Source: Antedon bifida
Taxonomy: Eukaryota > Echinodermata > Crinoidea > Comatulida > Antedonidae
Length of the DNA: 64,000 bases
Direction of reading: 5' to 3'
Assembly (NCBI GenBank): GCA_963402885.1
Contig: OY727093.1
Coordinates: 1,302,001-1,366,000 of the forward strand
Below are positions 5,091 through 58,053 of the stretch, in pieces. The notes under the pieces were generated by a model. The model saw nothing but the letters and a program-made list of their open reading frames with translations, was not told the DNA's origin and made no database searches. Position 1 is the stretch's first letter. Each line of letters starts with the position of its first letter. The position numbers and the translations under genes are program-made.

Positions 5091-5235
5091 TAAAGCTCTG
5101 TCTACACTATCAAACTTTATGTGACAAAAAAATGTGATGTGCCCATATATAGACATGATGATGTCATATAACTACCATATTTATGCACATTACACTTTTT
5201 TTTTGTCAAACTAGTTTGATAGTTTAGACAAGTCT
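5091..5235 (+). mobile_element. MITE family copy 1 (forward)
   Basis: This is a short non-autonomous DNA element. The left end reads TA then AAGCTCTGTCTACACTATCA. The interior has the family core (GTGATGTGCCC, ACATGATGATGTCAT, one ACTACCATATTT unit). The right end has TTTTTTGTCAAACTAGTTTG followed by a slightly damaged complement of the left end (GTTTAGACAAGTCT). No reading frame for a transposase is present. The flanking TA fits a TA target duplication, as in Tc1/mariner-type elements; that class is my inference. Confidence 0.88.
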
Positions 5236-5269
5236 CATTGATGCTTAAGGAGTGGAGTTGAAAGACTTA

Positions 5270-5345
5270 CAACCCTGGCATTATGTCAGGATTGAAACCG
5301 GGATCTTGGGATTGGAAGGCAAGCATCACCAAGCTACTGCTTCAC
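5270..5345 (-). mobile_element. tRNA-derived SINE head fragment (decayed)
   Basis: Read on the minus strand, the segment has the order of a tRNA-type promoter: a box-A-like stretch opposite GCAAGCATCACCAAGCTACT, then a box-B-like stretch opposite GGATTGAAACC. This arrangement is common in tRNA-derived SINEs of invertebrates. It does not fold into a convincing complete tRNA, so I call it a SINE relic and not a tRNA gene. Confidence 0.45.
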
Positions 5346-5613
5346 TAAATGTTACCATCATCTTCACCATCATCATTATTTATCCTCTTTACACTTGTGT
5401 CAACTTCATTAGAATAGCAACTGAATCAAAATGATTATCATCTGTAAGATTAAAATCGGAAGCCCATATTAAACAGCTTTACACACCTGAAAGATAGTAA
5501 TTGGATGACTTCCACCTGTCTGTAACCCACACACCTCACCTGGGAACATTCCAATCTTTATTATACCTCAGTAATCATTCAGAAAAGTTCTTTTATGTTA
5601 TTTCTTCTTTCAG

Positions 5614-5716
5614 GTGTACGATCTAAAAGATGCACACAAGTTGATGTTACGTTGTTTGTTTATTGCCCTGCTTCATTTAACTGAATATAATATACATGTA
5701 GTGACGAAGATGAAAG
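5614..5716 (+). CDS. Weak candidate internal exon, unknown product
   Basis: A pyrimidine-rich run ending TTTCTTCTTTCAG precedes an open stretch of 34 codons, followed by AAAG then GTAAAT, an acceptable 5' splice site. The peptide starts VYDLKDAHKLMLRCLF and is hydrophobic in the middle. I recognise no family. One such acceptor-ORF-donor arrangement is likely to arise by chance in 64 kb. No partner exon is visible nearby, and a SINE relic lies 270 bp upstream. Confidence 0.15.
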
Positions 5717-5886
5717 GTAAATAGTAATAGTGCTTCATTAAGTTTCATTCATATCTGGACAACAAATAATATTTTGCTTACATTCTCAAAGTAAAATAAT
5801 ATATGAGTAGGATTTGTCACAGATTTTGTATTTTGTGATGATTTGTATTTGTCCATGTGTGTATGAACAATGTGTAGCTAAATATA

Positions 5887-6110
5887 GTTTAAAAGATTAC
5901 TCCACTGTGCCACTTACTGTAGCGTGCCATATATAATAATTTGATATTGTTTGAAAGATTTGTCCACTATTCCATAGAGCATCCCATTTATAATAATTTA
6001 ATATAGTTCAGTAGTTTGAAAGATTATTCCATATCAATAATTTGATATCCCATTTATAATAATTTAATATTCCACTATAATAATTTAATATTATTCCATA
6101 TTTTCATTAA
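5887..6110. repeat. Degenerate AT-rich repeat cluster
   Basis: The phrase ATAATAATTTGATAT or ATAATAATTTAATAT recurs about five times at irregular spacing, together with CCATTTATAATAATTTAAT and GTTTGAAAGATT. This looks like an old short tandem array that has decayed. Confidence 0.6.
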
Positions 6111-9100
6111 AATCTAGAATATTTTACATCACATTCATAATTTAACATTTATTTAAAGATTATCATTTTAAAAATAATATTTTTAGTAGCAATATTAAAA
6201 ATATTATTGTAAGTAATAATATAATTCAAAACTTATAAACAAGTAATATTAACTATTATATTAACAACAATTATAATTTGATTGACATTACAATGTTTGA
6301 AATATTTTATTATCATCACAAAAACAAATATTATATTCAACAGTTCGATTCATATTATTCTTTCAGTGTCTGTATAAAAAACATTATTTTTTTAGGTGAA
6401 ATGATGGATTTATATATTTATTTAGTACCCATCCATATATAAGGCGATTTATATAATCCATACTCAAATGCCAAGTATCCAACAAAGATACGTAAACGTA
6501 TTAGTTTTTATTTTTAGAATGAAAACTAAAACTCCTACATATGAAACTGAGAGTAGCGAATAATAAGTTGATCTATGAGAAGCTATCAGGGTGTTTTCAG
6601 CCTTGTCATGCAATCTTGGCGTAGTAGATCGTTGTTGAAGGAATCGATAATAGAGTTATAAAGGTCAAAGGTGAACTCATGTTTTTACCTTGAATAAATG
6701 TATTTATGAAATACAGGTGAATAAATGAGCTTTATCATTTTATCATTCAATAGTATACAAATAATGGTGAAAGATGACATTCTATTTTCATGAGACGCAG
6801 CCTGAGTGAAAATAGACACGATCGTTAAATAGTATGTACTATTGCATGCCATGTGACTTACAATCGTCCAATCAAATGACAGGAATTTATTCAGGTGTGC
6901 TGAATAATCAGTTCAGTGTACAATATCCATTTGTAATAATTAGCCATGGCAAGTAGTTGCAGTTTTCTGTAAAAGATGTAGCTACCTTTTATACCAAAAT
7001 AATCTATTATCAATGAAACAAAATTTGCAGCCTACAAACCTGAAGAATCTTAAAAGAGCCGCTTACAGCGTTTGACAACATCAATTGCAATAATAGTACA
7101 TTTTAATCCCAGTAATAATGACAATCACACGTACGCAACATTAGTAATGTTGTAATAATGAACAATGTGATGATGAAAATGCACTTATACATTTCAATTA
7201 TCCTACCAATTTTCATAAAAGCTTTTCTTTCTTCAGCCCGATGCTTTCACCGAAAGCCTTTCTTACCAATCTTGTTTATTATGGAAAACACGTCTTTCAG
7301 CTTTTAACATATTAATTTTCACTTCTTATTTATTCAAATTTTCTGATACTGTAGAAAAGTGATTCACCTTATAACTACTACTCATATTTTGTGTACCATT
7401 CAGGATTTACGGGAAAGCGCTATCATATAAAAATTTTATTTTAACTATCAAAGGGGAACGTGAGTCCGAAGCCCTGACGTGGGTTCTGCCCTGCCAGTGC
7501 AATGTTCTTTACAGAAAATGTGTTTACGTCAGTTTCTAATTTTCTTTTCCTTTGTTTTCTTTTCTGTACATTATGTTATTATTTTTTATGGCGCTTCTCA
7601 CGTTTTCTTTTATTTTCTTCCTTCCTTAATAGTAAAAAGAACCGATGGGTGTAGAGAACCAAACATTTGAAATGATATGTTTTGAGCCAGACTTTCTTCT
7701 TTTCTATTGAAGAAGTAGAACTTAAACTGGTGTTGGTACTTTTCTTTTTTGTAAGGAATTTTTTGCAAGAAAAACCAAACAAATTTAGTTATAAAACCGT
7801 ATTTTCCTGGGCAAAGAACCGTGTTCACAAGTTTAAAATGACTAAAAATAAATTTCATATTGACTTAAGTTACTCTGGTGATGGAAATTGTCGTTATTGA
7901 AATTTAGTCCTTACACTCTGTGGTATGCTTTCACTCGTGCTTATTATTCATATATGCTTTTATACTTTGTAAACAGGAAAATAGTGATGAATAACTGCCT
8001 TTTATGGAATTTTACCCTCAAGTGTTTTTGATAAAAGTTGAATAAAATCAGCTGAGTGAAAATATTCAACAATAATAAATAGCTATTTTATTATTTGCTG
8101 GTTGTCGTTTGGAATTTCATTTTCACATTTGTAATAGCTATTTTCACTTTTAAAAATTGTCAATAATAGGCCTACACTTAAATAATAAAAATGATTATTC
8201 AATATACAATAGGCCTGTAAGTAGTGCAAAAAATGTATTATTTATATTTTTACAAGCCCTTATTAGCCCTGGAAAATAACAGAGTTATCCATTGAATTTG
8301 AATTCATTTTGGCTGTGTTTGCTTGTTCTTTTTTCTTGGACTGTTTCAAATAAATGTGAATGGAATCATGAAATCAAATCATTAGCTTTTTGCTAATTAA
8401 TTTACTTTTATTATATTGAATCTAGTTACTATTGGGTACAAAAAAGAAACGTGTTCAGTTCGTGTTTGCATTACTGACGATCAACATTAATGTTATTCGT
8501 TCTTAAAATAGCATTAATAATTGCTTAATATTAGAATTATGATTGACAAATATGTTTTGCTGAACTAGAATTTGGTATTAACATTAATATGCAGTCTTTA
8601 GAATTTTGCTTTTAACATTAATATTACATGAATAGCCTGGCAATCTGCCAAGTATTGATCGTACCATTTCTAGATGTACAACATCACACAACATTGAAAA
8701 ATAAGTCATGCTCTACTGAAAATTGTACGTAGACATCTGTATTTTAGATTTGAGATTTGTAGAATTTAATTGTCCATACTAAACACAAGGAGTCATGTTA
8801 CTTCACTCTTGATATGCCTACTTGCTTCTGTTGATTTTATTTTTTAGTCTGTCACAAACAAACAGATAAATACGTCCACTAAACCAGTACTACAGAACAT
8901 ATAAACCTGTCCTTTGCTAAATTTTGTCAAGTTTAAGCAGGTGTGCTTATACTACCAGGGACCAAAATGTAGAACAGGGTTAACACCAAATATAGGGGTC
9001 ACTTGAGCTGAAAGCGAAAATTGTTAGACAACTTTCCCTTTTTCGTCAATTGTTACTATGTGTGTGGGGATCAAAAAGAAAAAGGGATGGGGTGAGAAAG

Positions 9101-9170
9101 ACTAAAAGAAAAGAATATTGATTTATGACCTATTTGTCGCTGCTTTGATGTTATTTGAATCTTATGGGTT
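6111..9170. other. Gene-free AT-rich stretch
   Basis: No gene is recognised. A 7440-7910 segment is somewhat less AT-rich and carries several overlapping short frames on both strands. One plus-strand frame ends in GDGNCRY, which recalls an OTU protease start, but there is too little to call. TAGGCCTA-like words occur near 8168 and 8212. Confidence 0.45.
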
Positions 9171-9465
9171 ATGGTTTAAATGTGGCATCAACACCATATA
9201 GCATGTGTTTTTCTATTGGTCTTATATCGGTTAGAATTTTTGCTTTAAAGCTCCATCTACACTATCAAAGTTTATGTGACAAAAAAATGTGATGTGCCCA
9301 AATATGGACATGATAATATCATACCACTATCATATTTGGGCATATCACTACCATATTTGGGCACATCACACTAGTTTAATAGTGCAGACAGAGCTTTACA
9401 GGTTATGATTTAAATGTGGCATCAACATCATATATAGCATGTGTATCTTTTGCTTTAAGGCTAAA
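9171..9465. repeat. Short tandem duplication split by a MITE
   Basis: A unit beginning GGTTATGGTTTAAATGTGGC with GTGGCATCAACACCATATAG and ending TTTTGCTTTAA occurs at about 9167-9248. It recurs at about 9401-9462 (GGTTATGATTTAAATGTGGC ... TTTTGCTTTAAGG). MITE copy 2 sits at the junction between the two units. The first unit has about 25 extra bases before its TTTTGCTTTAA end. Confidence 0.75.
9246..9398 (+). mobile_element. MITE family copy 2 (forward)
   Basis: Left end TA AAGCTCCATCTACACTATCA and right end CAGACAGAGCTT TA are near-perfect complements, with TA on both sides. The interior carries GTGATGTGCCC and two copies of the 21-bp unit ACCATATTTGGGCATATCAC. It lies between the units of a small tandem duplication, which gives an approximate unoccupied site and supports a TA target duplication. 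Confidence 0.9.
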
Positions 9466-10482
9466 TTTGAAATGGGCTTTAAACCACATATGAATAATGA
9501 TATCTTGTTTATGATATTAATATGTAAATTGTATAGGTGACTTGTACTTTTTCAGGATGTAAAGATTATATTTATTACTACATGTACTTTATATTACAAA
9601 TTTTTTCTCTTTTTTATTTTATAAATGATAAAGAATTCAATAGTAAGAATAAAACGTAGTTTAGTCGATGTAAAATGTTTCATTATAAGAATAAATTTTA
9701 TAGACATATTAAAAAAAAATGAACAATGCTATAGCAATTTTAAGATTTTATAGAATAGAGGTCTATTGTTTGTTGTATCCTGTATTGTCTGTTATTTGTT
9801 TAATATATCAGGTTAAAAAAATGCTGGTTAAGCAAGTTAGAAAAGAAAAGGAAAATTGAAAATAATTTCTCCATAGATATTTATTAATTTGAAACAATAA
9901 AGATTAGGAAAGCTGTGAGAAATTTATTAGAAATTTAAAAGTTTGCTAAAGACCAAGAATTTGGGATGAGTATTGATCTATTCACATGTTATTCAATTAC
10001 AAATATGTAATTCAAATTAAGTAGTACTACAATTTACTGTATTTCTAAGTAGCAAGCTCATCAGCGCACCCTCTCCACCAAAAATGTATTCATTTTGCGG
10101 TTTATAAATCTTGTGTTCAAAATTGTTTTTATATAATCACATAAATCTCAGATTTCCTGCTCTTATGTAGCAGATACACAGTTAATCCAACATTGTATTA
10201 AGGAGATTAAGATTTACTTGTTACGTTCTGATCGACGTGTATATACTAATCCCTTATTGTGATATTTGCTTGATCATACCTTCTTGTGAAACCAGATTAT
10301 GTAAGGTGTGCAAAAAACAAATATTATAATATACATATCATACATTGTCATATTTTACAAAAATTCCAGCAATTTATTAACCCATATCAGATGTAGCTCT
10401 GTAAACGAATCAAGTTTTATAAGAGTTCACAAAACAAGCACTTTTGTCAGATATAATTCTGATTAGGATTAGCTTTGTTATT
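9466..10482. other. Gene-free AT-rich stretch
   Basis: Only AT-rich sequence with homopolymer runs is seen. I recognise no gene, RNA or repeat family. Confidence 0.5.
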
Positions 10483-10692
10483 CATTGAATTGAATTGAAT
10501 TGAAATATATATTTGAATTGAAATATATATTTATACTGGGTAACCTCTTCAGTCAAAGACTGGTCTCCCAGAGGGCCCAGTTGGTGATCAGTGGCTGTGA
10601 TGTACTAATACACCGGGGTGACCCCCTACTCGTCTCGAACGATGTACTAGGTTCTTTAAAGTGCACATGAGCTAGTTGTGTACACTGGACCT
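10483..10692 (-). mobile_element. SINE/LINE 3' element with TTCAA-type tail
   Basis: Read on the minus strand, the element begins near AGGTCCAGTGTACACAACTA and continues through TTCGAGACGAGTAGGGGGTC. It then has CTCTGGGAGACCAGTCTTTG and a TATAAATATA stretch, and ends in a (TTCAA)n simple tail at the low-coordinate side. A shorter copy with the same CTCTGGGAGACCAGTCTTTG block and tail is at 61120-61187. The simple-repeat tail is typical of a retroposon 3' end. I have a general memory of similar sequence in other marine invertebrates but cannot verify it here. Confidence 0.72.
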
Positions 10693-13470
10693 ATTCATTC
10701 ATGTTTAACTCTAGTGTGTATGAACACAGCTATGGTCTTTATAACTGTAGTTTTATAACCTATTATTTAGATAGCTATGGTTTATTAACTGTACTTTTTT
10801 ATTTAGATAGGTATGGTTTTTGTTTTGGACATAAAAATATGTTTTTACAGGAAACTGCTCTACATCAACTTCCCAAATTATACACCATGAAATAAAACTG
10901 AAAGTTAATTACTATGTTGTGTACATTAGACACTCCTTAAAATGGTCTGCTTTTTTATTATTACATCAAAATAAAACATAAATTCCATAGTCAAGAAGAA
11001 GATGAAAAATATTTAATAATAAATAATGAACAGGGTGGATCCATCTGGTTGGGGCGAGCGTTCCCCCTTTTGTCAGCTAAAATGAAATTATGAACTACTT
11101 TGATATCTATATTTGACTATTAATATTTAGTAAGCACTCTCTCATTTGAAAAGTCTTCTCCTGATGAAAGCTTAGCATATGCAGGTACAAATCACAAACT
11201 GGAAATACATTATTTTTTATTTATTTTTTTTTATAGAAAAATTATATTGTGTTTAAATTTTACATTTCAACAATGCATCTTAAAACAATAACTAAAACAT
11301 AGTCTGCTGCCCTCAGTGTGTGCCGTCTGGTCTGTAATGGTATGCAGATGTAAGTTGACAGGTCCATAGTAGCAATTAGTCCTCAGACTAGCTAACATCA
11401 ATCATTTCTACTTTCAATATTTGTTATTAGCTTTCTTAAAAATCATTACTGTACTTCTTATATTTTATGATAATATAAAGTGATTCTCATCGTCCTAAAG
11501 TAAGGATACGTTTTGGAAATGAGCTACCGAATAGAAATGAATTTCCGGTTTTAACTCCTGAGAGGAAATCCTCCTGTAGATAGAATCTGCATGTCATTGA
11601 CCTCTCTGACCCTTTCAGATGTCAGGAAACTGTAGGTTTATGTACTATGCTATGATTTATTGAAAAATATATTATGATGTTTATTAGTTTTGATATTTTT
11701 TAGAATTTGGTAGTTAAGCTAGATGCTATGTTAAGCTCGTCTCTCTATCATATATTGCGATATATTGAAGTTACATTGTGGTTTAACTTCTTCTACGTTC
11801 AAACGCAAAAAAAAACGCTTTTCTAACTAATGTTACAATCTCAAATCGGTTGTAAAAGCCCTTTTTCTTCTCTTTTGTGTGATTCTCCCACATTTATTTA
11901 TTCTAATTTCTTTTCATTTTATTCAAGACATATTTATTAAGACAGTGAAAAATTAGTAAAATAAAATGCATAATACGTATAATTACATAAAGGTTCAGTG
12001 CACATGACTAAATATTTTTCATATTAAACATTACATTGTAAGAGAGATGTTGATAGTGTAAGAGAATTTAGTGAAAGATTCTTAAGTTAGTTAAAAAATT
12101 ATAAAATATGATGTGAACAACAATATAAAGTTAAACATATTCATTTGGAGTGAAATGGAGACTATGTATGGAGGTATGATAGTGTGAAGAATGAGTCAAT
12201 TTGCAAGAGTGGCACTGGATTGGTTCATTTCATTTTTTCTTCTGTGAAAAAAAAAATCAAGACGTTTTACTTGTTTTTCTTCAATCTATTTATAGAATTG
12301 ACATTTTAGATGAAAACTCCATCCAGCTGCTATGAATAATTCCTTCCCTTGTTGTTTAGCCAATTTCGAATAAACGTCAATTTTGTCTATTTTGCAAAAA
12401 TTGTAACTGGATTGGACTTTGAAGATAATTGCTGAAACTCCAATCTACGTCAAGACTGGTTGTGACTCAACCAAATTTAGTACTTTAACTCGATAGCAAA
12501 GCACAACAGTTTAAATCAGCCTAACTTACCTAAAAATAGATTGTATCGTCTTCCAGTGTATTATAAAATTATACTGAATCAAGGGATATTCGTTAATTTG
12601 TGACCCATTATAGAAAATTAAATTTGTGATAAATCCACTTGTCTCGAAGAAATTAGCTCTATATTCCAAATCGAAATCTGGTGAAACTTTCCCACAAAAT
12701 GAAATAAATATGCCAATAAATTAACAAACTATTAATTAATGAATTAATGCAGTTAGTGTTGGTCAGAGCTCTCAAGAAGACAAAAACAAATAAAATATCA
12801 ATTTTTGTTTTAATAGTCTGTAAAATCATAATTTATAATTATAAGATCTCTCATGGCCATAAAAGTGTCTTTTTTTAGATTTTGTAATAATTTCATTTAT
12901 TGCAAGAATATTATGGGATCTGTGATTTGTAATGAGATGTTCGCAAATATAAAAGAATTTATAGAAAGACAAAAACAAATGAAATAGTAACAAATGTAAA
13001 CAAAGCTATAATTTAATGTTTTAAATTTTGATCAGCTTCGTCTGGATAGACAACCCTCATTAAATATAGTTGAAATAAAATTTAAAAATGTGTTTGTATT
13101 TGATAATAAATGATGATTGTAGTGAGACACTATACTAGAGGAAGCCAGGGTAATTGTTAGTAACATCTGTCCAATTAACAGCCACATTCTTTAGCCTGTG
13201 TATTAATATTCATGTTGATAGATTGAATTATGTTGAATCTCATTCACGAATTCAGCATACATTCAGGTTTAACATCAACCAATCAGAATCATGGATAGTC
13301 CCATGTTGTTCATTGTAGTGAATACTCAAGCATTATGTTTTAGTTTTGATGCTTATTTCATTATTACAGTGTTATAATTTTAAAAACTTAGATACCTAAA
13401 TTAAAATTATTGATGCTTTATTATATGCATATCATCCTTGAAAATAACTAGGATTTAGTCAACATATTTA
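10693..13470. other. Gene-free AT-rich stretch with repeat scraps
   Basis: At about 11031-11100 a fragment reading GGGGCGAGCGTTCCCCC ... TCAGCTAAAATGAAATTATG resembles, inverted, the 20836-20905 fragment (CATAATTTTGTTTTAGCTG ... CCCTTTATACGCCCCTG). Apart from that I see no gene or known element. Confidence 0.45.
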
Positions 13471-13474
13471 AGTA

Positions 13475-13630
13475 CAGTGGCGTATATAGGATTTTGAATA
13501 TAGAGTTTTGAATAGAGAGGTCCAGGGCTTAAAAATTGTGAAATTAAGTGCAGAAATTACATCTAATGTCCTATCTTTTGCAATTTTTAGCTGACACTCC
13601 TTCCCTCCTTCTTGAATCCGCCTATGAAGT
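13475..13630. repeat. Decayed dispersed element, AGTGGCGTATA type
   Basis: The segment starts ACAGTGGCGTATATAGGATT and ends TTGAATCCGCCTATGAAG, so the two ends are loosely complementary (GGCGTATATAGGATT versus AATCCGCCTATG). In between is GCAATTTTTAGCTGACAC and a C-rich run, echoing 3795-3862 and 20836-20905. I interpret it as a short non-autonomous DNA element. The ends have diverged too far to define target sites. Confidence 0.45.
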
Positions 13631-15150
13631 AAAAAATAAAAATTTGAGACTGGATTATTAATACTGAATCCTCCTTACACCACTCTCCATCCAATCCATA
13701 TGAATTTTTGTTTTTAATTTTACATTATTGTGTTTTAATATTTAAGATTACTAATAAAAATAAGAAAATAATATCTTTATTAAACTGTAATATTTAGATT
13801 CATATGATTACCCAGTGACGGCTACCCAGTTTATAGATAATTAATATGTATATATCTATCAAATCTGTATATTTCTAGCAAACTATTATTATGATACTAG
13901 GCACTTTAAAATAACTTATGTATTCCTAATCTCTACATTTCCCAAAAGCTTCTTAGGATTTCACTATCTGATATCTGATACTTTTATTGATAAGAGCATA
14001 ATGATATTACTAGAAATTCTATTTACAGATGTTTGTTTCTAGTCTGCTCATAATTCCCATCTTTATTTAATTCTTCCAACTAATAAATGAATTGTATCAA
14101 CTTGAAAACAAATTTAAAACAAATCATATTCTTAATTCATATTACATTGATGAAATTCACTGCTGCTATGTGTATTGAATAACTTGAATGTTCATGCGCA
14201 TTCCAGTCACGTCTTTACAATGTGCTTGATGGCCAAAAAGACACTAAATTTGTAGTATTCATCAGATTTAAAGTTAATTCAAAACATGATACATCATCAC
14301 AATCTATAATTACTTGTGGAAATGAACATTGTATGTAATTTCATGTAGAATCTCTTAGGATTTCCCCGGACTCTATTGATTTTTTAGCTTCTGATTACTT
14401 GCAAGTTGCAGTCGAACCACACTATCTTATTGGATTGCTAGTAGCAGTGTATCACTCGCAGTAAATTATCGAAGAGGTCATCAAATGTGGGTCAAATGTT
14501 GATTCTGATCATGCTCGTTAAGAGTCGATATCCTTCAGATGTAAAACAAATATGCAAGGATGATGTTGCGATCCTACAAATATTTCTCAACTATGTAAAA
14601 CGCAAATGATGATGGTTTTTAAATTTAGAGTGTACTACAGTAGGCCTAAATTAGGAAATGTAGAAAATGAATGTATTTAGGCCTAAGCATTCTAAAGCTT
14701 AGGATAAGCAGGTCTGTACGCTGAGTTGTAAAGTTCGTTGGTGGCTTTAACTTACTTTTTTTTTGTTGAGTATGAATTCTCAGATTCTGATTAAGTGGGC
14801 TATAGCTTGAAAAAAAAAAATTAAAAGTAAAAGAATCAGTTGTGACATACAAATGTAATGACAAATCACACAAATCTGTGATATTGTATCGTGTGTGAAA
14901 GCTCACAAATAGTATAATTATCAGTATTATAATTGTTATTAGCAATTTGTAGGATGCTCTACTGAAAGAGTAAGATCACAGGACACAGTGTGTTAATACC
15001 TTACCTGTATTTTGTAGTGAGTTCAACTGTTGATCATATTAGAACCTACTGTTTTCTTGATTAGCAGTAGCCAATGAAGTATCATCACCTTCCCAAACCC
15101 CATCCCACCCTCCAACCAAAAATAACTCAAATTGCAGTGTTATATTATGT
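13631..15150. other. Gene-free AT-rich stretch
   Basis: Two TAGGCCTA words occur near 14641 and 14680, and a run of 12 A's at about 14810. No gene or RNA is recognised. Confidence 0.5.
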
Positions 15151-16672: not shown

Positions 16673-16679
16673 CACTCCC

Positions 16680-17171
16680 ACTGCATCTTCCCCTGGATCT
16701 TCCCCCTGGATCTTTCCCCTGGATCTTTCCCCTTGGATCTTTCCCCTGGATCTTTCCCCTGGATCTTTCCCCTGGATCTTTCCCCTGGATCTTTCCCCTG
16801 GATCTTTCCCCCTGGATCTTTCCCCTGGATCTTTCCCCTAGATCTTCCCCTTGGATCTTTCCCCTGGATCTTTCCCCTGGATCTTTCCCCTGGATCTTCC
16901 CAACTGGATCTTCCCCCAGGATCTTCTCCCTGGTTCTTCTCCCTGGTTCTTCCCCCTGGATCTTTCCCCTGGATCTTTTCCCTGGATCTTCCCAACTGGA
17001 TCTTCCCAACTGGATCTTCCCAACTGGATCTTCCCAACTGGATCTTCTCCCTGGATCTTTCCCTGGATCTTTCCCTGGATCTTCCCCCTAGATCTATACC
17101 TTGGAACTTCCCCCTAGACCTTCCCCCTGGATCTTCCCCCTGGATCTTCTCCCTGGATCTTCCCCCTAGAA
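16680..17171. repeat. 13-bp minisatellite array (about 36 units)
   Basis: The core unit is CCCCTGGATCTTT, 13 bp. Variants have one extra C or T, and a sub-block of 14-bp units (ACTGGATCTTCCCA) runs at about 16982-17050. Every unit keeps GGATC. The unit has no stop codon in any frame on either strand, so long frames run through it in all directions, up to 185 codons on the minus strand. Because 13 is not a multiple of 3, three units (39 bp) encode a 13-residue period such as GKIQGKDPGERSR in every frame. I treat these frames as by-products. The minus strand has GGGG runs every 13 bases in perfect units. Confidence 0.95.
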
Positions 17172-30318: not shown

Positions 30319-30596
30319 ACCCCAGCATATAATACATTATCAAATTCTTTATTTGGTTCGCTTTTTATCAATACTATGACAGCGTTTATCATGACAAAAA
30401 TGTATTAAGTAAAAATGATTGAACGCATTGAATGTAGGTTGGAAACATCACGCCACACATTCTGTAATTGGGTTCAAGATACCTTATTACACTCCCATAT
30501 TAATAATTCATCTATTTTCTCTTTTATGCTTACCATTTCATTGAATGCACGTTTCGCATGCTGTCTATCTATTTACCAACCAGAGATTTATTTTTT

Positions 30597-30672
30597 TTTT
30601 TCAACAATATTTTACGAGGGTGGTCCATCCAGCCGAAGCTGATCATTAGGGACCCTCGCAAAAATACATCAT
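30597..30672 (-). mobile_element. Retroposon 3' tail fragment, GGGTCCCTAATGATCAGCTT family, copy 1
   Basis: On the minus strand it reads GCGAGGGTCCCTAATGATCA, then a GCTGGATGGACCACC block, then AATATTGTTGAA and A-rich sequence. It matches 55796-55870 in the opposite orientation. The conserved stem-like block followed by an A-rich tail is typical of a LINE or SINE 3' end. Confidence 0.72.
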
Positions 30673-30719
30673 GACGAGACATAAACATGTAACAATAACA
30701 ATTAAATTAAAATAAATAT

Positions 30720-39960: not shown

Positions 39961-40085
39961 TAAAGCTCTGTCTACACTATCAAACTGTTTGACCAAAAAT
40001 GTGATGTGGCCAAATAATGGTAGTGATATGCCCAAATATGGTAGTGATACGACATCATCATGTCCATATATGGGCACATCAAATT
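39961..40085 (-). mobile_element. MITE family copy 3 (reverse, right end lost)
   Basis: TA AAGCTCTGTCTACACTATCA at the left is intact. The interior is in reversed order relative to copies 1, 2, 4 and 9: GGTAGTGATATGCCCAAATA units come first and CATCATCATGTCCATATATG after. The far terminal repeat is missing and the sequence passes into AAATTTTTCAAATTTAATC. This copy cannot be mobile. Confidence 0.85.
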
Positions 40086-40716
40086 TTTCAAATTTAATCA
40101 TGGAGAAATATTAAAATTATTTATGGGAATATCTGGATTATATATATATTTAGTTGAAACTACTGTCTATGCTTAAATTTCACTTTATACAGTTATAGTT
40201 AAATTAGTTAATTGACTTGCTTGGTTTGTAGCCGTCTAGATTCATCAAACCAGCTTATATTATCCACAATTTTATGTAGCGGTACATCACAAAGGTTTTA
40301 CTCAAAATGAAAGTATATAAAAATTACCTACCAGTTCTTATATCAGTACTGTACACACTTCAAGTATTTACTGATATAAGAGATTATTGCAGCTATTGCG
40401 TTATGCAATTTTCTGCTCATATTATGTATAGGAATATATACATTTTGAAATTCAATGGAAAGATGATATCTCATGAGATGATATACAGTATTGTAAAGGT
40501 GTATATTAAGTACTGTATTAATACAATTCTTTCGAAAAGCAGTGGCAAAGGAAATAGCAAAAAGTCATCAAAACATTGAAAAAATTGTCTATTACTGTTA
40601 TTAATTTAGTAGGTAGGGAAGGAGGTCCGCCGGTTATGATATAAAAATTTGCACCCCATCTATGCCCATCTCATTATCTACACCAGACATATTGTGTCTG
40701 TCGCATTCACCGCTGT
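40086..40716. other. Gene-free stretch
   Basis: A 90-codon frame at 40307-40579 is of chance length and has AT-driven composition. Nothing is recognised. Confidence 0.45.
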
Positions 40717-48145: not shown

Positions 48146-48149
48146 TACA

Positions 48150-48320
48150 GTACAACCCTTTTTATGACACCTATTTAGGGGACAATCCAGTTAAGAGGAG
48201 ATCTGGTTATGAAACGAATGAGGGAAAATACATGTTTTAACAATATTTCCAATCCAATTCAGAAAACACTTCTATTAAGGGGACACTTGTTGGGTCCTAA
48301 AGGTGTCCCTTTCAATTAAA
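48150..48320 (+). mobile_element. Possible pogo/Tigger-like MITE remnant
   Basis: TA CAGTACAACCCTTTTTATGA with GACACCTATTTAGGGGACA and further AAGGGGACACTTG / AGGTGTCCCTTTCAATTA blocks. The inverted GGGGACACTTG ... AGGTGTCCCTTT gives a partial terminal or subterminal inverted repeat. CAGT next to TA and repeated GGACACC words are seen in pogo-type short elements; this is inference. A related scrap is at 37482-37560. Confidence 0.5.
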
Positions 48321-48460
48321 TTCAAAATAACATTTATTTACTTCCTTTTAAGATTTAAACAATAATGGAATAAATAAGAAATAACATACTTAATTAGCCC
48401 TCAATTAGCATTTCCTGTCACCAACTTTGGTGCTTAGTGCACATAATTATTATTGTTTTG

Positions 48461-48550
48461 TATTCACTTGATCTTGAAAATGGTTCTATGATGGTACCGA
48501 AACGTCGATCTCTCTTTTTGTCATTAAATTTTATATTGAAATTATATAGT
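48461..48550 (+). mobile_element. Possible Penelope-like element fragment
   Basis: CTTGAAAATGGTTCTATGAT then GGTACCGAAACGTCGATC and TTTTTGTCATTAAATTTTAT. A stem of the form GGT...ACC followed by GAAACGTCG is typical, from general knowledge, of Penelope-like element ends, where hammerhead ribozyme motifs reside. No coding remnant is seen. This is a weak family call. Confidence 0.35.
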
Positions 48551-49116
48551 AAACGTCTTTTAATTCGTTAATAACATACTGTATACAAATAACAATAAAT
48601 CTGAGGAGAGGGGAAAAGGAAGATGGCAGGATCTCAGAAAGATACAGGATCTTGAGTCGGGTCTGCCTCGGACACAAAGCAAAGGGACAAAGACAAGCGT
48701 GGTCCTACTGTATTCGACTTTGTAATACATTCGGTATTATAGTTATTATTATTTATATGCAAATAATTATCTCATGAATATCATTACCAACATCTGTTGC
48801 AAGGTGATGTCGTCCTTCAGTTTAAATATTAAGCTCTTGATCCTATATCAAGATGCTATAAATTATTGTTTATTTATGTGAAATCGTCATCATGTGCAAT
48901 TTGATTTATCTATTTTATGATATTCTAATAGTTATTATTTATATTATTACAATAAATTTTGTATTGGAAAAATGATAACTTGAACAATGATTGTGTTTAA
49001 AATAATTAAATTGTGTAATGGTATGTGATTTTCAAAATTGCAATACTAGTTGGCCTAATAATGATATACAGTACTACCAAGCCTGTAACCAGAATATTTT
49101 TTTCACTAAAGTGCAT
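48551..49116. other. Gene-free AT-rich stretch
   Basis: A GC-richer patch at 48600-48710 is unassigned. Confidence 0.4.
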
Positions 49117-49129
49117 CCCCCCCCCCCCC
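49117..49129. repeat. C13 homopolymer
   Basis: Thirteen consecutive C residues followed by ACCCC. It is the longest C run in an AT-rich window and may be prone to length error in sequencing. Confidence 0.95.
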
Positions 49130-50330
49130 ACCCCTACTATGGTTAAAAATGATAAAGGCATGATCATATTTCTTTATTAACATTCAATGCTGTTTGATTA
49201 ACCACTAAAATATAAGCAAACCAATCTATCAACTAAACATGTTTTTCTCAATCATGAAATATTAAAAGAAACCAAATGCAGCTAATTATTAGTGACCCTG
49301 AGAATCTTGTTTTAATTGCAAACTAATTAAGCTTCATCCACTGTCATTGGTAAGGCTTTAACTACAGTACCAGGATTTTTGTTATCATTTTGCCACTAAT
49401 GGATCCAGGGATATTTGTGTTACACAGATTGCATTTTTTCATTAAATAACAGACACATTTAAATGTAGTGATTCCAAATCATAATACAACTTCAAGTAAT
49501 ATTCACAGATGATGAATGTCATATCATAACATTATACAGCTATAGTGACAAACATTAATGTTTTTCTAAATCATATTTTGATATTTTCACTGTTTGCGCT
49601 GGAGCAAAGAGTAATTTTTAAAGAACAGTAAAGAATACTCCTGATTGGTCTGGAGTAGTACACACAAAACAAATAAACATAATACAATTTGTTAAATAAA
49701 ATATGTTAATTTTTGTTTTTCTATTATATTCTTTATGTCAAACAATAAAATCAATGAATAAGGAATTACAGAATTTCAATTTCAATTCAATATATTTTTT
49801 TTTCCAAGAAATAAATAAATTTTGAGAACAAGATGAAGGTATCGTTGTTTGGAAACCTTGCGGCATTAAATTGGTAGTAGCCACAAAAAAGGCATTAAAC
49901 ATTCCAAGAGAGTACAGTAGTAATATACAATGAACATAAAAACTGAGATTATGTTTATAACAACACATCAATGACAAATGAGTAGTGTTGGTATTTTAAG
50001 AACTCAATCTGCTTAATTACACAAGAGTTCATTATGTGATTTGAATTCTTCAGTTCTTGTTCAGAACCTTGATATGTCTTACATCCCCTCTTTCACATCG
50101 TGGGACTGTGGAGGTCTTTTGTAAGAGATCAGTTCTAATTGTGATTTGTTAAAACCCTGGACACAAAAGGCAAAAGTAAGCGGACCGTGAGAAAGTCAAT
50201 TACAGCTTTATATTATACTTGAGATTAGTGTTTGGGATAATGACGGTATTATCACAGGTGTATTGTCTACGTAAATAGGCCTATGTATATCTTATTCATA
50301 GTGTATCAATGCATATAAATCAATGCTAGA
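49130..50330. other. Gene-free AT-rich stretch
   Basis: A TTTCAATTTCAATTCAATA stretch at about 49774 may be a reversed retroposon tail. No gene is recognised. Confidence 0.4.
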
Positions 50331-50334
50331 TTAA

Positions 50335-50470
50335 CAGTAGAGGAGTTGTATCTTGGTGCTTCACCTTTGATTCAGGTGTCATGGGTTCAAATCCTGTGTA
50401 TTCATGACAAAACATCTCCATTCCAATAGATTTGTTCAAGGGCATATCCTGCCTTGAAGATGAATGATGA
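50335..50470 (+). mobile_element. tRNA-derived SINE-like relic
   Basis: A GGAGTTGTATCTTGGTGCTT stretch is followed by a box-B match, GGGTTCAAATCC at about 50382-50393. CAAGGGCATATCCTGCCTT lies downstream, in the position where marine SINEs often have a CAAGGCACTTTA-type block. The tRNA cloverleaf is not convincing. Confidence 0.4.
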
Positions 50471-50779
50471 AGACACGAATAATGGCAGGGGCCGGCAAAG
50501 TCCACCATAAAGGTGCACTTGAAATGGAACAACCTTACGTGTTGACATTCACTCGTCTACAACACTATCTTTTAAATCGTTTAAAGATAAACTTTGTTAA
50601 AACTTGATACGGTCTATGCGGTCTATGTATGAATATTGTCTATATTAAAATAAGCGATTAATATATTTGGTGGCATCACAAACAGGCTTATTATCTGATA
50701 TTGGTCATTATTGTCATCACTCTCATTTTCATCTATTTTATTTGTCATCCTAAGTAGACTTCTTGTCTCATTTTCTCCT

Positions 50780-50852
50780 TTGAACTGGACATTGGACCAT
50801 TGATTTGGTATGTGTAGACCACTGAACATTGGATCATTGGGCATGTGTAGAC
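50780..50852. repeat. Short imperfect tandem repeat
   Basis: GGTNTGTGTAGACCACTGNAC / GGCATGTGTAGACCATTGGAC and ACATTGGACCATTG / ACATTGGATCATTG recur two to three times. The repeat is echoed as SGLHIPN / NGLHMPN in a minus-strand frame of 104 codons, which is otherwise unremarkable. Confidence 0.65.
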
Positions 50853-50937
50853 CATTGGACCTTATTGACAATTTAATATACTGTTTTTTTATTAATCCAA
50901 ATACAAATTCTGGTGAACAAATGATCATTCTGTGCAC

Positions 50938-51687
50938 ATTAACAGGTTGGATCTAATTTCACAGAAAATCTCCAAAATCATGCATGCACACCAAAACAAA
51001 TCGTTGAGGTTAACAATATGATGATAATAATAAAGCTTAACATTAAACAGACAAAAAGAGCAATGTATACTGTACTAGGAAAAATATTATCACCAGGATA
51101 GCAGTAATGTAGTTTAAAATCTTCCTTGTGCAATTGTGGTTTTTTTATACCCCATGTATGGATGCATGCAATAAGAACGATTTGTATAGCAAACAAACGT
51201 ACAAATTTTCTCCCAATATAGATTAATATGATATATGCTTATTTATACATTTGTGTAATTAATGATTATTTATAAATCAAGGAAGTAATCGTAATTATTA
51301 TATAGTTGTATTATCATTTGATTTATCTTTTTATTGCTTTATAGGTTGTTGATGTATTTATGAATCTGAACTTCCTTAATGCTCTTGAAAGAGAATTTTC
51401 GGTAAAGTTGTGAGTACAATTTATTGCAAAGGAATTAAATGGAAACCATAAAATGTTTGATTTAGTTGTCTAATAAATCACGGCGACTATAATTTAATGA
51501 TGCAAAATTATTGTTAGAAAAGAATAGGAAATAAAATGGTGAAAAAATATCTATTATGATATGTAAACATTTTTGATAGTTGTTTAAAGGATTACATGAT
51601 GAATAAACATTAGTAAGTTTAGTTATTTAAGTTTGCGGTTTAAGGTTAAAAAATAATGTTATTACAATATATCAACGTTTTGGTTGT
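50938..51687. other. Gene-free AT-rich stretch
   Basis: No recognised features. Confidence 0.5.
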
Positions 51688-51872
51688 TAAGCTCTGTCTA
51701 CACGATCAAATTTTATTTGACAAAAAAATGTGATGTGTCATATGGATAAGATGATGTCATATTACTACCATATTTGGGAATATCACTACCATATTTGAGC
51801 ATATCACTACTATATTTGGGCACATCACATTTTTTTTTGTCAAACTAGTTTGATAGTGTAGACAGAGCTCTA
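51688..51872 (+). mobile_element. MITE family copy 4 (forward, longest)
   Basis: The left end AAGCTCTGTCTACACGATCA and right end TTTGATAGTGTAGACAGAGC pair along about 22 bases. TTTTTTGTCAAACTAGTTTG precedes the right end. The interior has three to four tandem ACCATATTTGGG-AATATCACT units, more than copies 1, 2 or 9, which explains the greater length. A TAA-type flank is seen on both sides. Confidence 0.92.
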
Positions 51873-52312
51873 AGCTACAACCATCTTTTCAACTGCACTC
51901 ATTACATGGATGGTATAAAGAAACTGATTAAAGACGACCTGGTTCCTCCTTCGCTATCATAAGATCAGGTGAATATATCATGCTTGTCTAGAACATTCAA
52001 ATTAGAATCAATAATATACTGCGAAAAGATATGTAATTGATAGCGTTGCCTATTAACGAACGTACTATGGTGAGACAAAGTAAACCGCACAATCTGCTCG
52101 CTAATATTGATGACAGAAATTCAGTCGTTGATGTGTGGCATTCATTTTATAATTCACTTATCCATAAATCATTCCTAAAGATAAACACATGAAGTTTGAG
52201 ATAGCTTTAAGATGAAAACTAAAACATCAAGTATTATAACATTTCTAGACTTTTTTTTTTACTTTTTAGACATTTAGAAATAAATAAAAATGTATTTATT
52301 CATTTTTGTTTC
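51873..52312. other. Spacer between MITE copies
   Basis: No recognised features. Confidence 0.45.
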
Positions 52313-52450
52313 GGTAGTGATATGCCCAAATATGGTAGTGATATTCCTGGACATGATGATGATGTCATATCACTACCATATTTAGGCACATCACCACCAT
52401 TTAAGGCACATTTTTTGTCAAACTGGTTTGATAGTGTAGACAGAGCTTTA
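52313..52450. mobile_element. MITE family copy 5 (left end lost, palindromic interior)
   Basis: The left terminal repeat is absent. The copy starts inside the core with GGTAGTGATATGCCCAAATA units. It passes through TGGACATGATGATGATGTCA and then reads the opposite arm, CATATCACTACCATATTT, ending in a good right end (GTTTGATAGTGTAGACAGAG). Both orientations of the core are joined head to head, so the interior is largely self-complementary. This is unlike the other copies. Confidence 0.85.
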
Positions 52451-53165
52451 TTCTCAAATCTGTTTACTGTACATATGTGACCAAATAAATATACGGCACT
52501 GATGAGATCTAATAAGATAGAAAATGTACTGTCTGCAGATTGGATATTATTTTTATTAACGCTACAACGCGACAAGTTGATATTTAAAGTTAATTGACCC
52601 ACATATGATGCTTGTCTTCTCTTCTTTAAAGTTAGACACGATGACCGAGATATGTTTCTTCTTATTCAGTCCATGTTATACATTCATTGGTTATTAGCTG
52701 ATGTGTTTTTGTTTCTATAGCAGTTTTGTTTTACACCAAATTATTATATCTACACGCAATATCATGAAAGTAAGAATCAGTAACCTAAATAAACATAAAA
52801 AAACATAATTAAATAAAATAATATTAATTTCCTTTTATACTATTACATTACAAATATACTTATAATGACATTTAAAGCAAATTATCTAATTATTTACATA
52901 GATGTGATAGATGTACACATACTATACTAACCGATTATTGGTACTGTATATAAATGTATATAATACCCATCCAGTATTATAGGAAATTCTGCAATATTGA
53001 CGTATCATAGGCCATTAGCCTAACCAACCTAACCATAATACAGGTGTCATATGTGATACATATAAGACACTGTATTACATAATTTGCCTATTATACTGGT
53101 TGGATAATGCCATATGTTGAGATACAGTACATAGAGGATCTGATGACCACATAAGAAAACAAAAC
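52451..53165. other. Spacer between MITE copies
   Basis: AT-rich, with no recognised features. Confidence 0.45.
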
Positions 53166-53320
53166 TAAAGCTCTGTCTACACTATCAAACTTGTTTGACA
53201 AAAAAAGTGTGATGTGCCCATTTATGGTAGTAATATGCCTAAATATGGTAGTGATATGACATCATCATGGATAGGCACATCAGATTTTGTTGTCACATAA
53301 AATTGTTAGACAGAGCTTTA
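53166..53320 (-). mobile_element. MITE family copy 6 (reverse)
   Basis: Left end TA AAGCTCTGTCTACACTATCA and right end AGACAGAGCTT TA. The core is in reverse order (GGTAGTAATATGCCTAAATA, then GACATCATCATGGATAGGCA). The right subterminal region reads TGTCACATAAAATTGTTAGA, so it carries the TTATGTGAC variant found on the left side of forward copies. This is consistent with a reversed insertion. Confidence 0.92.
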
Positions 53321-53741
53321 CACTATAAGAAAAAGCAAATCTTATTTTGTTCTGTCTTCAACATTATTAACATCATCATCATTATCAAGTTATTGTTACC
53401 ATAGTCATTATCATCACATAATCAATATTATCATCATCGTCGTCATCACCTTTTGTTGCTTTGTCAGCATGATTACAGTTCCTATAGTAAATGTTGTTTT
53501 CATTCATTGGTTTATTATTCATTCTAGTCAATCAGTTTAACTCTTGATATTGATTTGATTAAACACACTAAATTATGCGTCATGAATGGATCAATACAAG
53601 TCATGTGACCAATTAGTCGCATATGGTAATTATGCAGTTGATGGTCTAGTCTGTGAGATGTTGTTAAGTTGTGAAAAAAACTACAAAAATCTGAGTCACA
53701 ACAGATAAATCATTTGGCATTATCGGTTGAAGATATCATCA
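53321..53741. other. Spacer with (CAT)n-rich tract
   Basis: ATCATC-rich sequence at about 53365-53450, otherwise unremarkable. Confidence 0.45.
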
Positions 53742-54066
53742 ATGTATGATGAAAGTCAAAAAGGAAAGAGAAAAGTAGTAGACAAAACAAACAATCACCC
53801 TGCCCATGACAGAGGAAAATGGTATAAAATAAAAAATATCATCGTTGGTATATTTAGTGGTGTTGTTGATTTGTAGGGGTTGCGGACACTTACGTGTTAT
53901 GACGTGTTACGCAACCTCTTGACCAATTGTGTTGAATAAATAAATGAAAAATGAAAAGAGGAAGATCAAAATCTGCATGGATCATGAAAGTAAAAAAAAG
54001 GAAATAGAAAATGTAATAGACAAAACACAAAACCATCCTGCCCATGTCGCAAGACGAGATGCGTAA
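53742..54066 (+). repeat. Diverged tandem duplication holding two related short ORFs
   Basis: Two segments share GAAAGTNAAAAA, GTARTAGACAAAACA and ATCMYCCTGCCCATG. The first (53742-53876) has an ATG frame of 44 codons; the second (53977-54066) has an ATG frame of 29 codons. Both peptides keep an E-S-x-K...V-x-D-K-T-x-N-H-P-A-H core, and they differ by a 3-bp indel that preserves the frame. I recognise no family. They may be remnants of a duplicated exon or repeat. Confidence 0.6.
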
Positions 54067-54174
54067 CTGAGGACGCCTCCTTGGAAATAATTTCTTTCTG
54101 GCTGAATAAAAACATTATAACAGCCACCAGATACAAGACAAGAAACATAGCTTTAACTTTATTATCTTTATCCT

Positions 54175-54325
54175 TAAGCTCACACTTTACATTACCAAAC
54201 TAGTTTGACAAAAAAAGTTTGATGTGCCAAAATATGGTCGTGATATGCCCAAATATTATGGTACTGATATGACATCATCGTGTCCATATAAGGGCACATC
54301 ACATTTTTGTTGTTACATAAAGTTT
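54175..54325 (-). mobile_element. MITE family copy 7 (reverse, worn ends)
   Basis: The left end is damaged (TAAGCTCACACTTTACATTA), followed by a good CCAAACTAGTTTGACAAAAA. The core is reversed with GTGATATGCCCAAATATTAT and CATCGTGTCCATATAAGGGC. The right side ends near TTACATAAAGTTTAG, with the final CTACAC...GAGCTT part missing. Confidence 0.82.
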
Positions 54326-54969
54326 AGTTAAGTTTGAGTTGAGAGTTTATTGATTCTTTGAATAATAAACACATTGTGTAATATATGAACGATATGAACT
54401 AATTAATCCACAAGGGATGAATGAATGAATAATATTCATTAAATAATAAAGAATGAATTAATGAATAAATTAATAAATAAATTAATTAGCTTGAATATAA
54501 AACTATTAAACCAATGAATAATTTTGTAATTAGATGGCTATGATAACAAATTATGAAACCAATGAATAAAGTAATAAACGCCATGACAAAATATTGATTG
54601 GAATACAGAATATTCTATGCATATTTTTTATAATACTATAATAATAGAACAGGAATACTACCATATTTAGAATGTAGCCTACTTTCACGATAGCCACAGG
54701 AGAAAGAAAGTAATTCATTCATGTTATTAGTTGCCAGGATGTTGTCGCAACTGTCAGCAACTATCATTTTAAGGAAGTTATCAGCTAAAATGTCCTTCTC
54801 AAGGTTGTTCACTTTTCAACAACTAGTGAAAGTTTTCCAGGGTATGACAAACATTCTCTGGAAATAACAAAAGTATGTCTGAGATTCTTTACACATTAAT
54901 GTTACAGCATTTGACATACATTCTTAATCAACCATTACAATAACCTGACCCAAATATACCAGTGTGGCT
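54326..54969. other. Spacer between MITE copies
   Basis: GAATGAATGAATAA runs at about 54417-54480; otherwise AT-rich without recognised features. Confidence 0.45.
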
Positions 54970-55118
54970 TAAGCTATGTCTACACTATTAAACTAGTTTG
55001 ACAAAAAAAAATATGATGAGGCCAAATATGGTAGTGATATGCCCAAATATGGTAGTGATATAATATCGTCATGTCCATATATGAGCACATAAAGTTTCAT
55101 AGTGTAAACAGAGCTTTA
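54970..55118 (-). mobile_element. MITE family copy 8 (reverse)
   Basis: Left end AAGCTATGTCTACACTATTA and right end CATAGTGTAAACAGAGCTT TA. The core has two GGTAGTGATATGCCCAAATA-type units followed by CGTCATGTCCATATATGAGC. It is complete but with several substitutions. Confidence 0.9.
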
Positions 55119-55795
55119 GTTTAATATTTGCATTACTAAATGGCATGAATATGTCTAGTGTGAAGTGTGCTACTATCCATCCTACGTTGGCTCCAGGGAT
55201 ATTGTCAGTGGGAGTATAGGAAGTAAATCCTCTCCTGTATATCCGGCTTTCAAGGAGCTAATACTACTGACAGCCTTCAAGTATTATATTATTCTGCGTG
55301 CACCCCAGGGTAGCTGTATCAGCCTGTTTATTACCTACTTTTTACCCTGTGACAAGTGAAATTTTCCTTTTAAATATTAAGTATTTCACTTAACTAAATA
55401 AATATTTAAATATTTCCCTTAAATTGTATTCACTTAGATAGTAGATTTTTTAAATTTTAAACGGTAAATGTTTCCCTTAGCCTAAGTGTGAATGTTGAAT
55501 ACGGCCACTGGTTCCTTTGAGTGTAAAGAAAAACAGATAAGACATACAGTAGATTTTTTGATCTTTCTATAAATGTTTGTTATTTTATTTCAGTTCATTT
55601 ATTTGACCAACAAACCATGTAAAAAAAAACAGAGGAGAATTGGTCAGAGACTGCAACTACAAGAGCCAGCAGTCCTATGATTGTAACTAAAATGAGCAAT
55701 AAATAATATAGACGGTTATTCTTTCACCATGAAAATACACATTTTTATTGTCAACTGTATTTTTTTATGTTTTTGTCCTGTTTAATTGTATTGTA
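55119..55795. other. Gene-free spacer
   Basis: A less AT-rich block at 55165-55360 has a 64-codon plus-strand frame of unknown nature. (AAATATTT)-like runs follow at 55370-55430. Confidence 0.4.
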
Positions 55796-55870
55796 GTGAG
55801 GGTCCCTAATGATCAGCTTGGGCTAGATGGACCACTCTTGTTAAATATTGTTGAAATAAAAATAAGAAAA
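55796..55870 (+). mobile_element. Retroposon 3' tail fragment, GGGTCCCTAATGATCAGCTT family, copy 2
   Basis: GTGAGGGTCCCTAATGATCA, a GGGCTAGATGGACCACTC block, TTAAATATTGTTGAAATAAA, then an A-rich tail. It matches 30597-30672 in the opposite orientation. This copy preserves the tail better. Confidence 0.75.
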
Positions 55871-56087
55871 TAAAATAAAATGATTAGAAAAATTGGTAGA
55901 AAAGTCTATTTTTGTCTTTCATGATTTAATGTAGATTGTATTTTAAATATATTTTGTTACTATTATTTAAAAGACATAATTTCTTTTCTAAATATGGGAT
56001 TCTCCAAGGACTAGATTTGCACAATTATCAGAAAAACTGCTAATGAACAAGATACGTCATCATCATCATCATCCAGAGTATCTGTAC
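55871..56087. other. Gene-free spacer with (CAT)6-type run
   Basis: A CATCATCATCATCATC run is at about 56058-56073. Otherwise nothing is recognised. Confidence 0.5.
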
Positions 56088-56234
56088 CTTGATGTCATTA
56101 GCCGACTGCAAGCAATAACTCCCATTTCTCTTCATCAAGTCACTATACAACAACACATTTCTTTCTATTGCTTGCCCATTAGGGCTGTCTGTAAATGTTG
56201 AATTGATACTATCAATGACAGACTGTTTGGACAT
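56088..56234 (-). CDS. Weak candidate exon, unknown product
   Basis: On the minus strand a frame opens with ATG at 56234, directly after an in-frame TGA, and runs 49 codons to AAG followed by GTACAG, a strong 5' splice site at 56088/56087. The peptide starts MSKQSVIDSINSTF and contains NVLLYSDLMKRNGSY, with protein-like composition. An alternative overlapping frame starts MAFECPNSLSLIVSIQ. Two competing frames in the same place argue for a decayed coding sequence or chance. I recognise no family with confidence. Confidence 0.2.
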
Positions 56235-56783
56235 TCAAAAGCCATTGTAGACAGTCGGTAAAAATATCCATTACCTGCTTAAGGGTCTCAATGTATAATA
56301 ACAAATGCTGAATTCTATTTTCTAAGAATTGTTAATGTGTAGATATTTAAATAGTAAATAATACTCTTTAAATCGTATTTATTATCTTCCCTTGAATTTA
56401 AATTAAATATTTCCAAACTAACTGACCATTAATTAAATATTTTTTGTTAAGAGCTTCTCAACTAAAGCTTATGGTTCAAATTAGGATGCAATGACGTAAA
56501 TACAACGTAAGCGAGTTGACCAATGACAATTGACAATTTAGATCAACCATTGCTTGTGTTTGGTTAAATTACTTGCGTTGCGCTTACGTTACTAAGCTTA
56601 ATACCAGTACCCGAGGAATATGGTGGCATTTATGTAGAGTGCCATGTCCTTGGTGTGTTTGGTCAGGTTTTAACCTGATCATTTTTTTTAACAACATCCA
56701 TTGATTAATTACTAGATTAATCTCATCACATCAGTGAATTATTTTTTTTTTAATTATGAAATTAGAATATAAGAATATAATTC
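56235..56783. other. Gene-free stretch
   Basis: AT-rich, with no recognised features. Confidence 0.45.
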
Positions 56784-57398
56784 AAATGTGTCAAGATGCT
56801 TGCTTTGTTGTCTGCCAGTGGGATATAACAGTGAATAGGGGACCATACCCAACCATAAGCTTTATTTTGACAGATGTACCGTAGGCCTACCGACTAAAAT
56901 TACGACAAAAGTTACGAATTAGAATTTAAACAAAGTTTAAGTTCAAGAAAATTTGAAATGGAATATAGATCAAGAAATCATGTGCATTGGTATTTTTTGT
57001 ATATTATATTAAAAATAAATGTATTCATTACAAAAGGAATATATTGTACTATCTGCAAGTAAGTAATATTTATTTCTTTCCAAGAACAGAACAATTTATA
57101 AAACAGCATAACATTTGAATGAAAATAAATACATAGAATAATACAAACATTAAACTTGAGAAAGTAAACATGGAAAGCAGGGGATAACACTTTAAGCCAA
57201 AAGGCTTGTTTCCATAGATAATAAATAAAATAAATGGAAATGATGTTTCACTTATAAATGAATAAAGAAACACCATAAAATTAATGAATAATATGATCTG
57301 TGTATGTCATGCTCTTACATGTTGTTTGAAATGAAGCTCCCTGATTGGCTGAAAGTTACATCCCACTGGCAGACAACAAAGCAAGCATCACACATTTC
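56784..57398. mobile_element. Element bounded by ~40-bp inverted arms
   Basis: The left arm (56784-56825) and right arm (57358-57398) are inverted copies. The shared run GATGCTTGCTTTGTTGTCTG and the following CCAGTGGGAT match exactly. The match extends outward through AAATGTGT, with CAA extra on the left. The 532-bp interior holds only AT-rich sequence, small chance frames and one TAGGCCTA word. It may be a non-autonomous DNA transposon or foldback element, but I see no clear target duplication. Confidence 0.75.
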
Positions 57399-57912
57399 TA
57401 GTGTAGATTAAACAAATTTGAATAACCTTGGATTTAACTGCTAAAACACTATTTTAACTTGCAGATATTAATATATTTACAGGTTAGTGTTTTTCTTATT
57501 GTTGTTATATAGATTGAGTAATTAAAGGAATTAAATAGAATCAGAAATACAGACTTATTCCTAGGCCTACATCATCATGATATACTTAGCCTAGCCTAGA
57601 ATAAGTCATAAGTTAGTAGGAGATGGTGGTGGTTTGCCTGCTTATGTTTACTATAGCAATCATGGCCTAGGCCTATCTAAGCTGAAATAGAATACCTACT
57701 CCTATTAATATTAGTTTTAGCATTTATTGCAACAATAAATTAACTCCTCGTCATTTCTTGATAAAATGTGAATTGGAAATTGTGTAAATTTAGTATTTTA
57801 TAATTTAGATTCTATGGCACGGAAAATATGCAGGGTAGGTATATATCACCAGTCCTTTGAGTAGTAATGATCTCAATTCAGGTACAGGACTTCACACATT
57901 TTGTAAATGTGG
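57399..57912. other. Gene-free spacer
   Basis: TAGGCCTA-like words cluster at 57561-57675; otherwise no features. Confidence 0.45.
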
Positions 57913-58053
57913 TAAGTTATGTCTACACTATCAAACTTTATGTGACAAAAAAATGTAATGTGCCCATATATGGACATTATGTATCATCATATCATATTAG
58001 GGCATATCACACTTTTTTTGTCAAACTAGTGTGATAGTATAGACAGAGCTTTA
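57913..58053 (+). mobile_element. MITE family copy 9 (forward)
   Basis: Left end AAGTTATGTCTACACTATCA and right end GTGATAGTATAGACAGAGC plus TT. The core has GTAATGTGCCCATATATGG and a shortened centre with a single GGGCATATCAC unit. TTTTTTTGTCAAACTAGTGTG precedes the right end. TA flanks are present on both sides. Confidence 0.9.

Follow-up and report, generated by a model that had tools for sequence, protein, structure and literature searches.

The target-site duplication of PIF/Harbinger elements is TWA, and their terminal inverted repeats (TIRs) usually begin with A or G (PMC4482050). In this study, a MITE family whose TIRs begin with AGCTCTG was characterized from a window, a 64-kb stretch of Antedon bifida DNA (C1:1302001-1366000 of a 315.56-Mb assembly, which consists of 11 contigs of 19-37 Mb and 16 others of no more than 282.5 kb each). 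We consider it probable that the family is non-autonomous and Tourist-like and that its mobility depends on a PIF/Harbinger-type (PHIS) transposase acting in trans. Four TIR strings had no match in the literature searched, and a description of the family was not found there (the search covered titles and the starts of abstracts). As far as the literature was searched, this is a new and very abundant MITE family of a familiar kind. It adds a very abundant echinoderm family to the MITEs, which is useful for repeat masking and for studies of insertion sites.

Copies in the window and structure of the element

The TIR 20-mer AAGCTCTGTCTACACTATCA was matched 12 times with up to three mismatches in the 64-kb window, against 0.01 expected from shuffles, and the subterminal block TTTTTTGTCAAACTAGTTTG was matched seven times against 0.05 expected. 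A profile made from the copies recovered 9 of 9 reported places when the window was searched with it. The nine copies or remnants described in an earlier reading made from the sequence only were thus confirmed; the shared terminal repeats that it ascribed to all nine held in part. Both TIRs were recognisable with up to five substitutions in only five of the nine (starts 5094, 9249, 51690, 54972, and 57915; 136-180 bp), and the remaining four are truncated or decayed, those at 39964 and 52317 lacking one end and those at 53169 and 54186 having decayed ends.

The first copy (5094..5235, minus strand) has a decayed TIR at its 3′ side, as read on the plus strand, and the second (9249..9395, minus strand), flanked by TAA...TTA, lies within a local tandem duplication. 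Copy 3 (39964..40095, plus strand) is without its 3′ end. Copy 4 (51690..51869, minus strand), flanked by TTA...CTA and with a related empty site on C12, carries three 21-bp units, seen as a direct repeat of 3.4 units at 51758..51828 on the minus strand. Copy 5 (52317..52447, minus strand) has no 5′ end as read on the plus strand. Copy 6 (53169..53317, plus strand) has a decayed 3′ TIR and flanks that read TAA...TTA in the sequence, while both ends of copy 7 (54186..54325, plus strand) are decayed. Copy 8 (54972..55115, plus strand) is flanked by TTA...TTA, and copy 9 (57915..58050, minus strand) by GTA...TTA on the plus strand. Six of the nine starts fall within 6.2 kb (51690-58050; P about 0.003 if uniform, in a post hoc test), and insertion of the MITE seems clustered. 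Several copies are likewise contained in L034 (C7:3.00-3.01 Mb).

No ORF of at least 200 codons, no Rfam match at gathering score, and no tRNA were found in the window. Other repeats were observed there: a dispersed repeat with a short hairpin (10520-10691 and 61126-61187), about 86-90% identical to L034; an inverted pair of a different 120-bp repeat (30593-30712 and 55743-55862), 78% complementary; and a minisatellite of about 37 copies of a 13-bp unit (16676-17167).

A consensus, the construction of which the earlier reading had proposed, was built from an alignment of 31 copies with both ends, five from the window and 26 from fetched loci; 22 of these 26 came via an exact TIR, so that younger copies are over-represented. 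The consensus element is 163 bp long and non-coding, a judgement based on its sequence and on the window's reading frames. It is an almost perfect palindrome, in which each arm measures about 60 bp. Its predicted fold is one long hairpin of -90.2 kcal/mol, compared with -33.3 (sd 3.3) for shuffles. The paired copies are 80-253 bp long (median 147, n = 31). Short palindromic copies, TIRs, and 14,079 exact ends in the genome all agree with the MITE family without coding capacity that had been proposed. The string GTGATGTGCCC, originally taken as a core, is present but lies within the long inverted-repeat arms, so that the element is nearly all TIR.

The sequence AGCTCTGTCTACACTATCA is conserved at the ends. 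In blocks of ten alignment columns, conservation was 93-96% inside the TIRs and 84-96% in the core; it was 78-81% in the outermost two, where columns of the flank are counted in. Divergence of the core from the consensus ranged from 0.9% to 22.5% (median 8.7%), and parts of the interior are absent from many copies. The 21-bp direct-repeat unit CCCAAATATGGTAGTGATATG, which the earlier reading had overlooked, occurs zero to four times per paired copy, with one to four units seen in 28 of the 31 when up to five substitutions are allowed. The longest paired copy, L003, has DNA foreign to the family between its ends; the insert within this copy (L003:1502-1754) resembles another repeat.

Genomic abundance and target site

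A genome-wide search, likewise proposed in the earlier reading, found the exact TIR 20-mer 14,079 times (7,096 forward and 6,983 reverse); the control pattern, the same 20-mer read backwards, did not occur at all. No exact match to the TIR was found in viral and prokaryote contigs. Of nine 10-kb stretches picked by coordinate alone, five contained the family, with about 10 copies or fragments in total, six of which lay together in a single stretch. Rough extrapolation from these stretches and from the nine copies in the 64-kb window suggests a copy number in the tens of thousands. When the first 100 TTAAAGCTC ends of the listing, which extend to C1:30.6 Mb, were counted by hand, 49 fell at 0-10 Mb, 11 at 10-24 Mb, and 40 at 24-30.6 Mb; judged by these 100 ends, the middle of C1 seems poor in the family. 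A further contig of the assembly, C27 (15,844 bp), contains a fragment of cytochrome b. Translating AAA as Asn, as in the echinoderm code, which flatworms also use, recovers conserved residues (for example TNLLSAIP, VDNAT, and SNNPTG) and lifts the Pfam Cytochrome_B score slightly, from 166.1 bits under table 5 to 169.8. An echinoderm host is thus likely, and the eleven large chromosomes would suit a crinoid.

All 14,079 exact ends begin with AAGCTC. TA lies directly outside AAGCTC in 7,848 and directly outside AGCTC in 5,332, and thus adjoins one or the other at 13,180. The base before TA differs between the two classes: T was found in 1,452 of the 7,848 TA-AAGCTC ends (18.5%) and in 4,903 of the 5,332 TA-AGCTC ends (92.0%), and at the loci examined individually in 10 of 41 versus 17 of 20 (Fisher P 2e-5). 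Because of this difference, the unit adjoining AGCTC is TWA rather than TA plus an optional A. The trinucleotide before AGCTC was TAA at 7,848 and TTA at 4,903 exact ends genome-wide, that is, TWA at 12,751 of 14,079, a count in which the final A is forced by the 20-mer; the loci examined individually are free of this constraint, and TWA was found there at 58 of 74 ends (TAA 41, TTA 17). The TA flank of the sequence-only reading is therefore real, but as part of TWA next to AGCTC.

When TWA is duplicated faithfully, TAA is read at one end and TTA at the other. The TAA:TTA ratio was 61.5:38.5 and not 50:50, which counts against a PIF/Harbinger source. The two flanks of single copies were also compared. 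TWA was present at both ends of 18 of the 31 paired copies (TAA/TTA 7, TAA/TAA 6, TTA/TTA 4, TTA/TAA 1). Fourteen further TA-flanked pairs were taken from listed places in C1:0-3.31 Mb, the stretch in which both TA-flanked end classes were fully listed; three were dropped (C1:458622, already counted, and C1:2247802 and C1:2551221, which have no T before TA), leaving 29 pairs. W was alike at both ends in 16 of the 29 and different in 13 (12 TAA/TTA, 1 TTA/TAA), whereas independence of the two ends would predict agreement in 12.4 (odds ratio 5.3, Fisher P 0.20); under a less strict selection of 31 pairs, 17 were alike (Fisher P 0.26). A faithful 3-bp duplication should yield agreement in most copies, and 16 of 29 also counts against the PIF/Harbinger reading. 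Repair of one palindrome arm guided by the other was considered as the cause of the TAA/TTA mismatch and was not supported (two TIR changes shared between arms versus 1.4 expected).

These flanks bear on two alternatives. The first, a Stowaway-like MITE with a TA duplication, TIRs starting AAGCTC or AGCTC, and a Tc1/mariner or pogo transposase, is in our view unlikely. The TA adjoining one of these starts at 13,180 of 14,079 exact ends favors it, and in 12 of the 29 pairs the flanks can be read as TA perfectly duplicated beside ends that start AAGCTC. However, a Tc1/mariner duplication of TA would carry no further fixed flank base, and this alternative leaves unexplained why T stands before TA in 92% of the ends in one class and in 18.5% of those in the other.

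We judge it rather improbable that one set of TIRs is inserted with two kinds of duplication, 3-bp TWA in some copies and 2-bp TA in others, or else that the middle base of the target is altered once the element is in place. If this were true, TSD length, which is used to classify PHIS groups, would not be fixed within a single family. The second alternative, variable duplication length as such, with the same ends producing 3-bp TWA in about half of the copies or 2-bp TA in about two fifths, is distinctly improbable; the pair counts (TAA/TAA and TTA/TTA together 16, TAA/TTA 12, TTA/TAA 1; n = 29) and the excess of TAA ends speak for it, but the same counts also fit an independent W at each end (Fisher P 0.20), and the pairs are few. 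The weak agreement of W between ends could serve to probe the strictness of target duplication by Harbinger-type elements.

Twenty joined flank pairs were searched against the genome. Beyond the copies themselves, two matches were obtained: a partial one nearby, within the tandem duplication that adjoins copy 2, and a junction-spanning one on C12, with 78% identity to the query. The C12 paralogous empty site reads GGTTG-TTA-TTCTACAACC, with a single TTA, and the filled site of copy 4 reads GGTTG-TTA, element, CTA-AGCTACAACC. Compared with copy 4, this one diverged site would fit duplication of either TA or TTA, and the local duplicate beside copy 2 would likewise fit a duplicated TA or TTA. 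That the family is a satellite or a set of chance inverted repeats and not a transposon is hardly credible and is refuted by dispersed copies with fixed ends: the 21-bp tandem unit is the point in its favor, but the copies lie in unrelated flanks in the search just described, and a long satellite of the 21-mer was rejected for exact arrays, since those from slightly more than three units upward gave 60 overlapping matches genome-wide and stop at about six units.

Candidate sources of the transposase

The DDE_Tnp_4 domain (PIF/Harbinger and relatives) accounted for 150 scored matches among 215 candidates in the genome. Several families can be told apart among them, with open frames and with identical scores that recur. 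DDE_3 (Tc1/mariner) gave 15 matches and DDE_1 (pogo) 49. Some matches of these latter two have open frames, a point in favor of the Stowaway-like alternative. Against it, a TIR pair at up to six mismatches was found at none of three fetched DDE_3 loci of the 15, the best match included; one of the three had a single TIR match at this threshold, inside its reading frame. On C1, the DDE_Tnp_4 matches are mostly at 19-24 Mb. At C8:21.5-22.2 Mb, 16 DDE_Tnp_4 matches with similar scores and one internal TAA each were observed in a 0.7-Mb stretch; this set is an amplified broken transposase copy.

The TA flank had led the sequence-only reading to suggest a Tc1/mariner-type source. This part of the reading was not supported, given a flank of PIF/Harbinger form, 150 DDE_Tnp_4 versus 15 DDE_3 matches, and the three DDE_3 loci, and the likely source superfamily is corrected from Tc1/mariner to PIF/Harbinger-type. 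The TWA flank, the excess of DDE_Tnp_4 over DDE_3, and the A-starting TIR point to the latter with moderate confidence.

The earlier reading had also proposed looking for a longer element with the same termini and a DDE transposase, and none was found at the three DDE_3 loci, at C1:3120636, or among the facing ends in C1:0-3.31 Mb. The DDE_Tnp_4 match at C1:3120636, the one within this stretch, had no listed exact end within 5 kb, and facing ends 0.8-6 kb apart were not commoner there (12) than outward-facing ones (18). A parent element is inferred. Under the PIF/Harbinger reading, its transposase would bind the MITE ends, excise the MITE, and insert it at TWA targets. As the element consists almost entirely of terminal repeat, internal deletions and altered numbers of the 21-bp unit would be tolerated as long as the ends are kept.

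Comparison with Stowaway- and Tourist-type MITEs

The MITE described here resembles the Stowaway-type MITEs of Tc1/mariner in being AT-rich and palindromic and in having TA adjoining its ends. It differs from them in its TWA flank, where the first-place T is mostly fixed, and in the genome that carries it, where there are few DDE_3 matches and a pair of MITE ends is absent from each of the three that were inspected.

The comparison with the Tourist-type MITEs of PIF/Harbinger (PHIS) is closer to the reading that we favor, but differences were found here as well. A matching autonomous element was not found for this MITE, and its two flanks do not clearly share the W of TWA. In addition, the element is almost wholly palindromic and has a 21-bp internal repeat. 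The likeness to the Tourist type lies in short, non-coding copies in high number, with TWA at the ends and a TIR starting with A, and in the many DDE_Tnp_4 transposase matches within the MITE's own genome.
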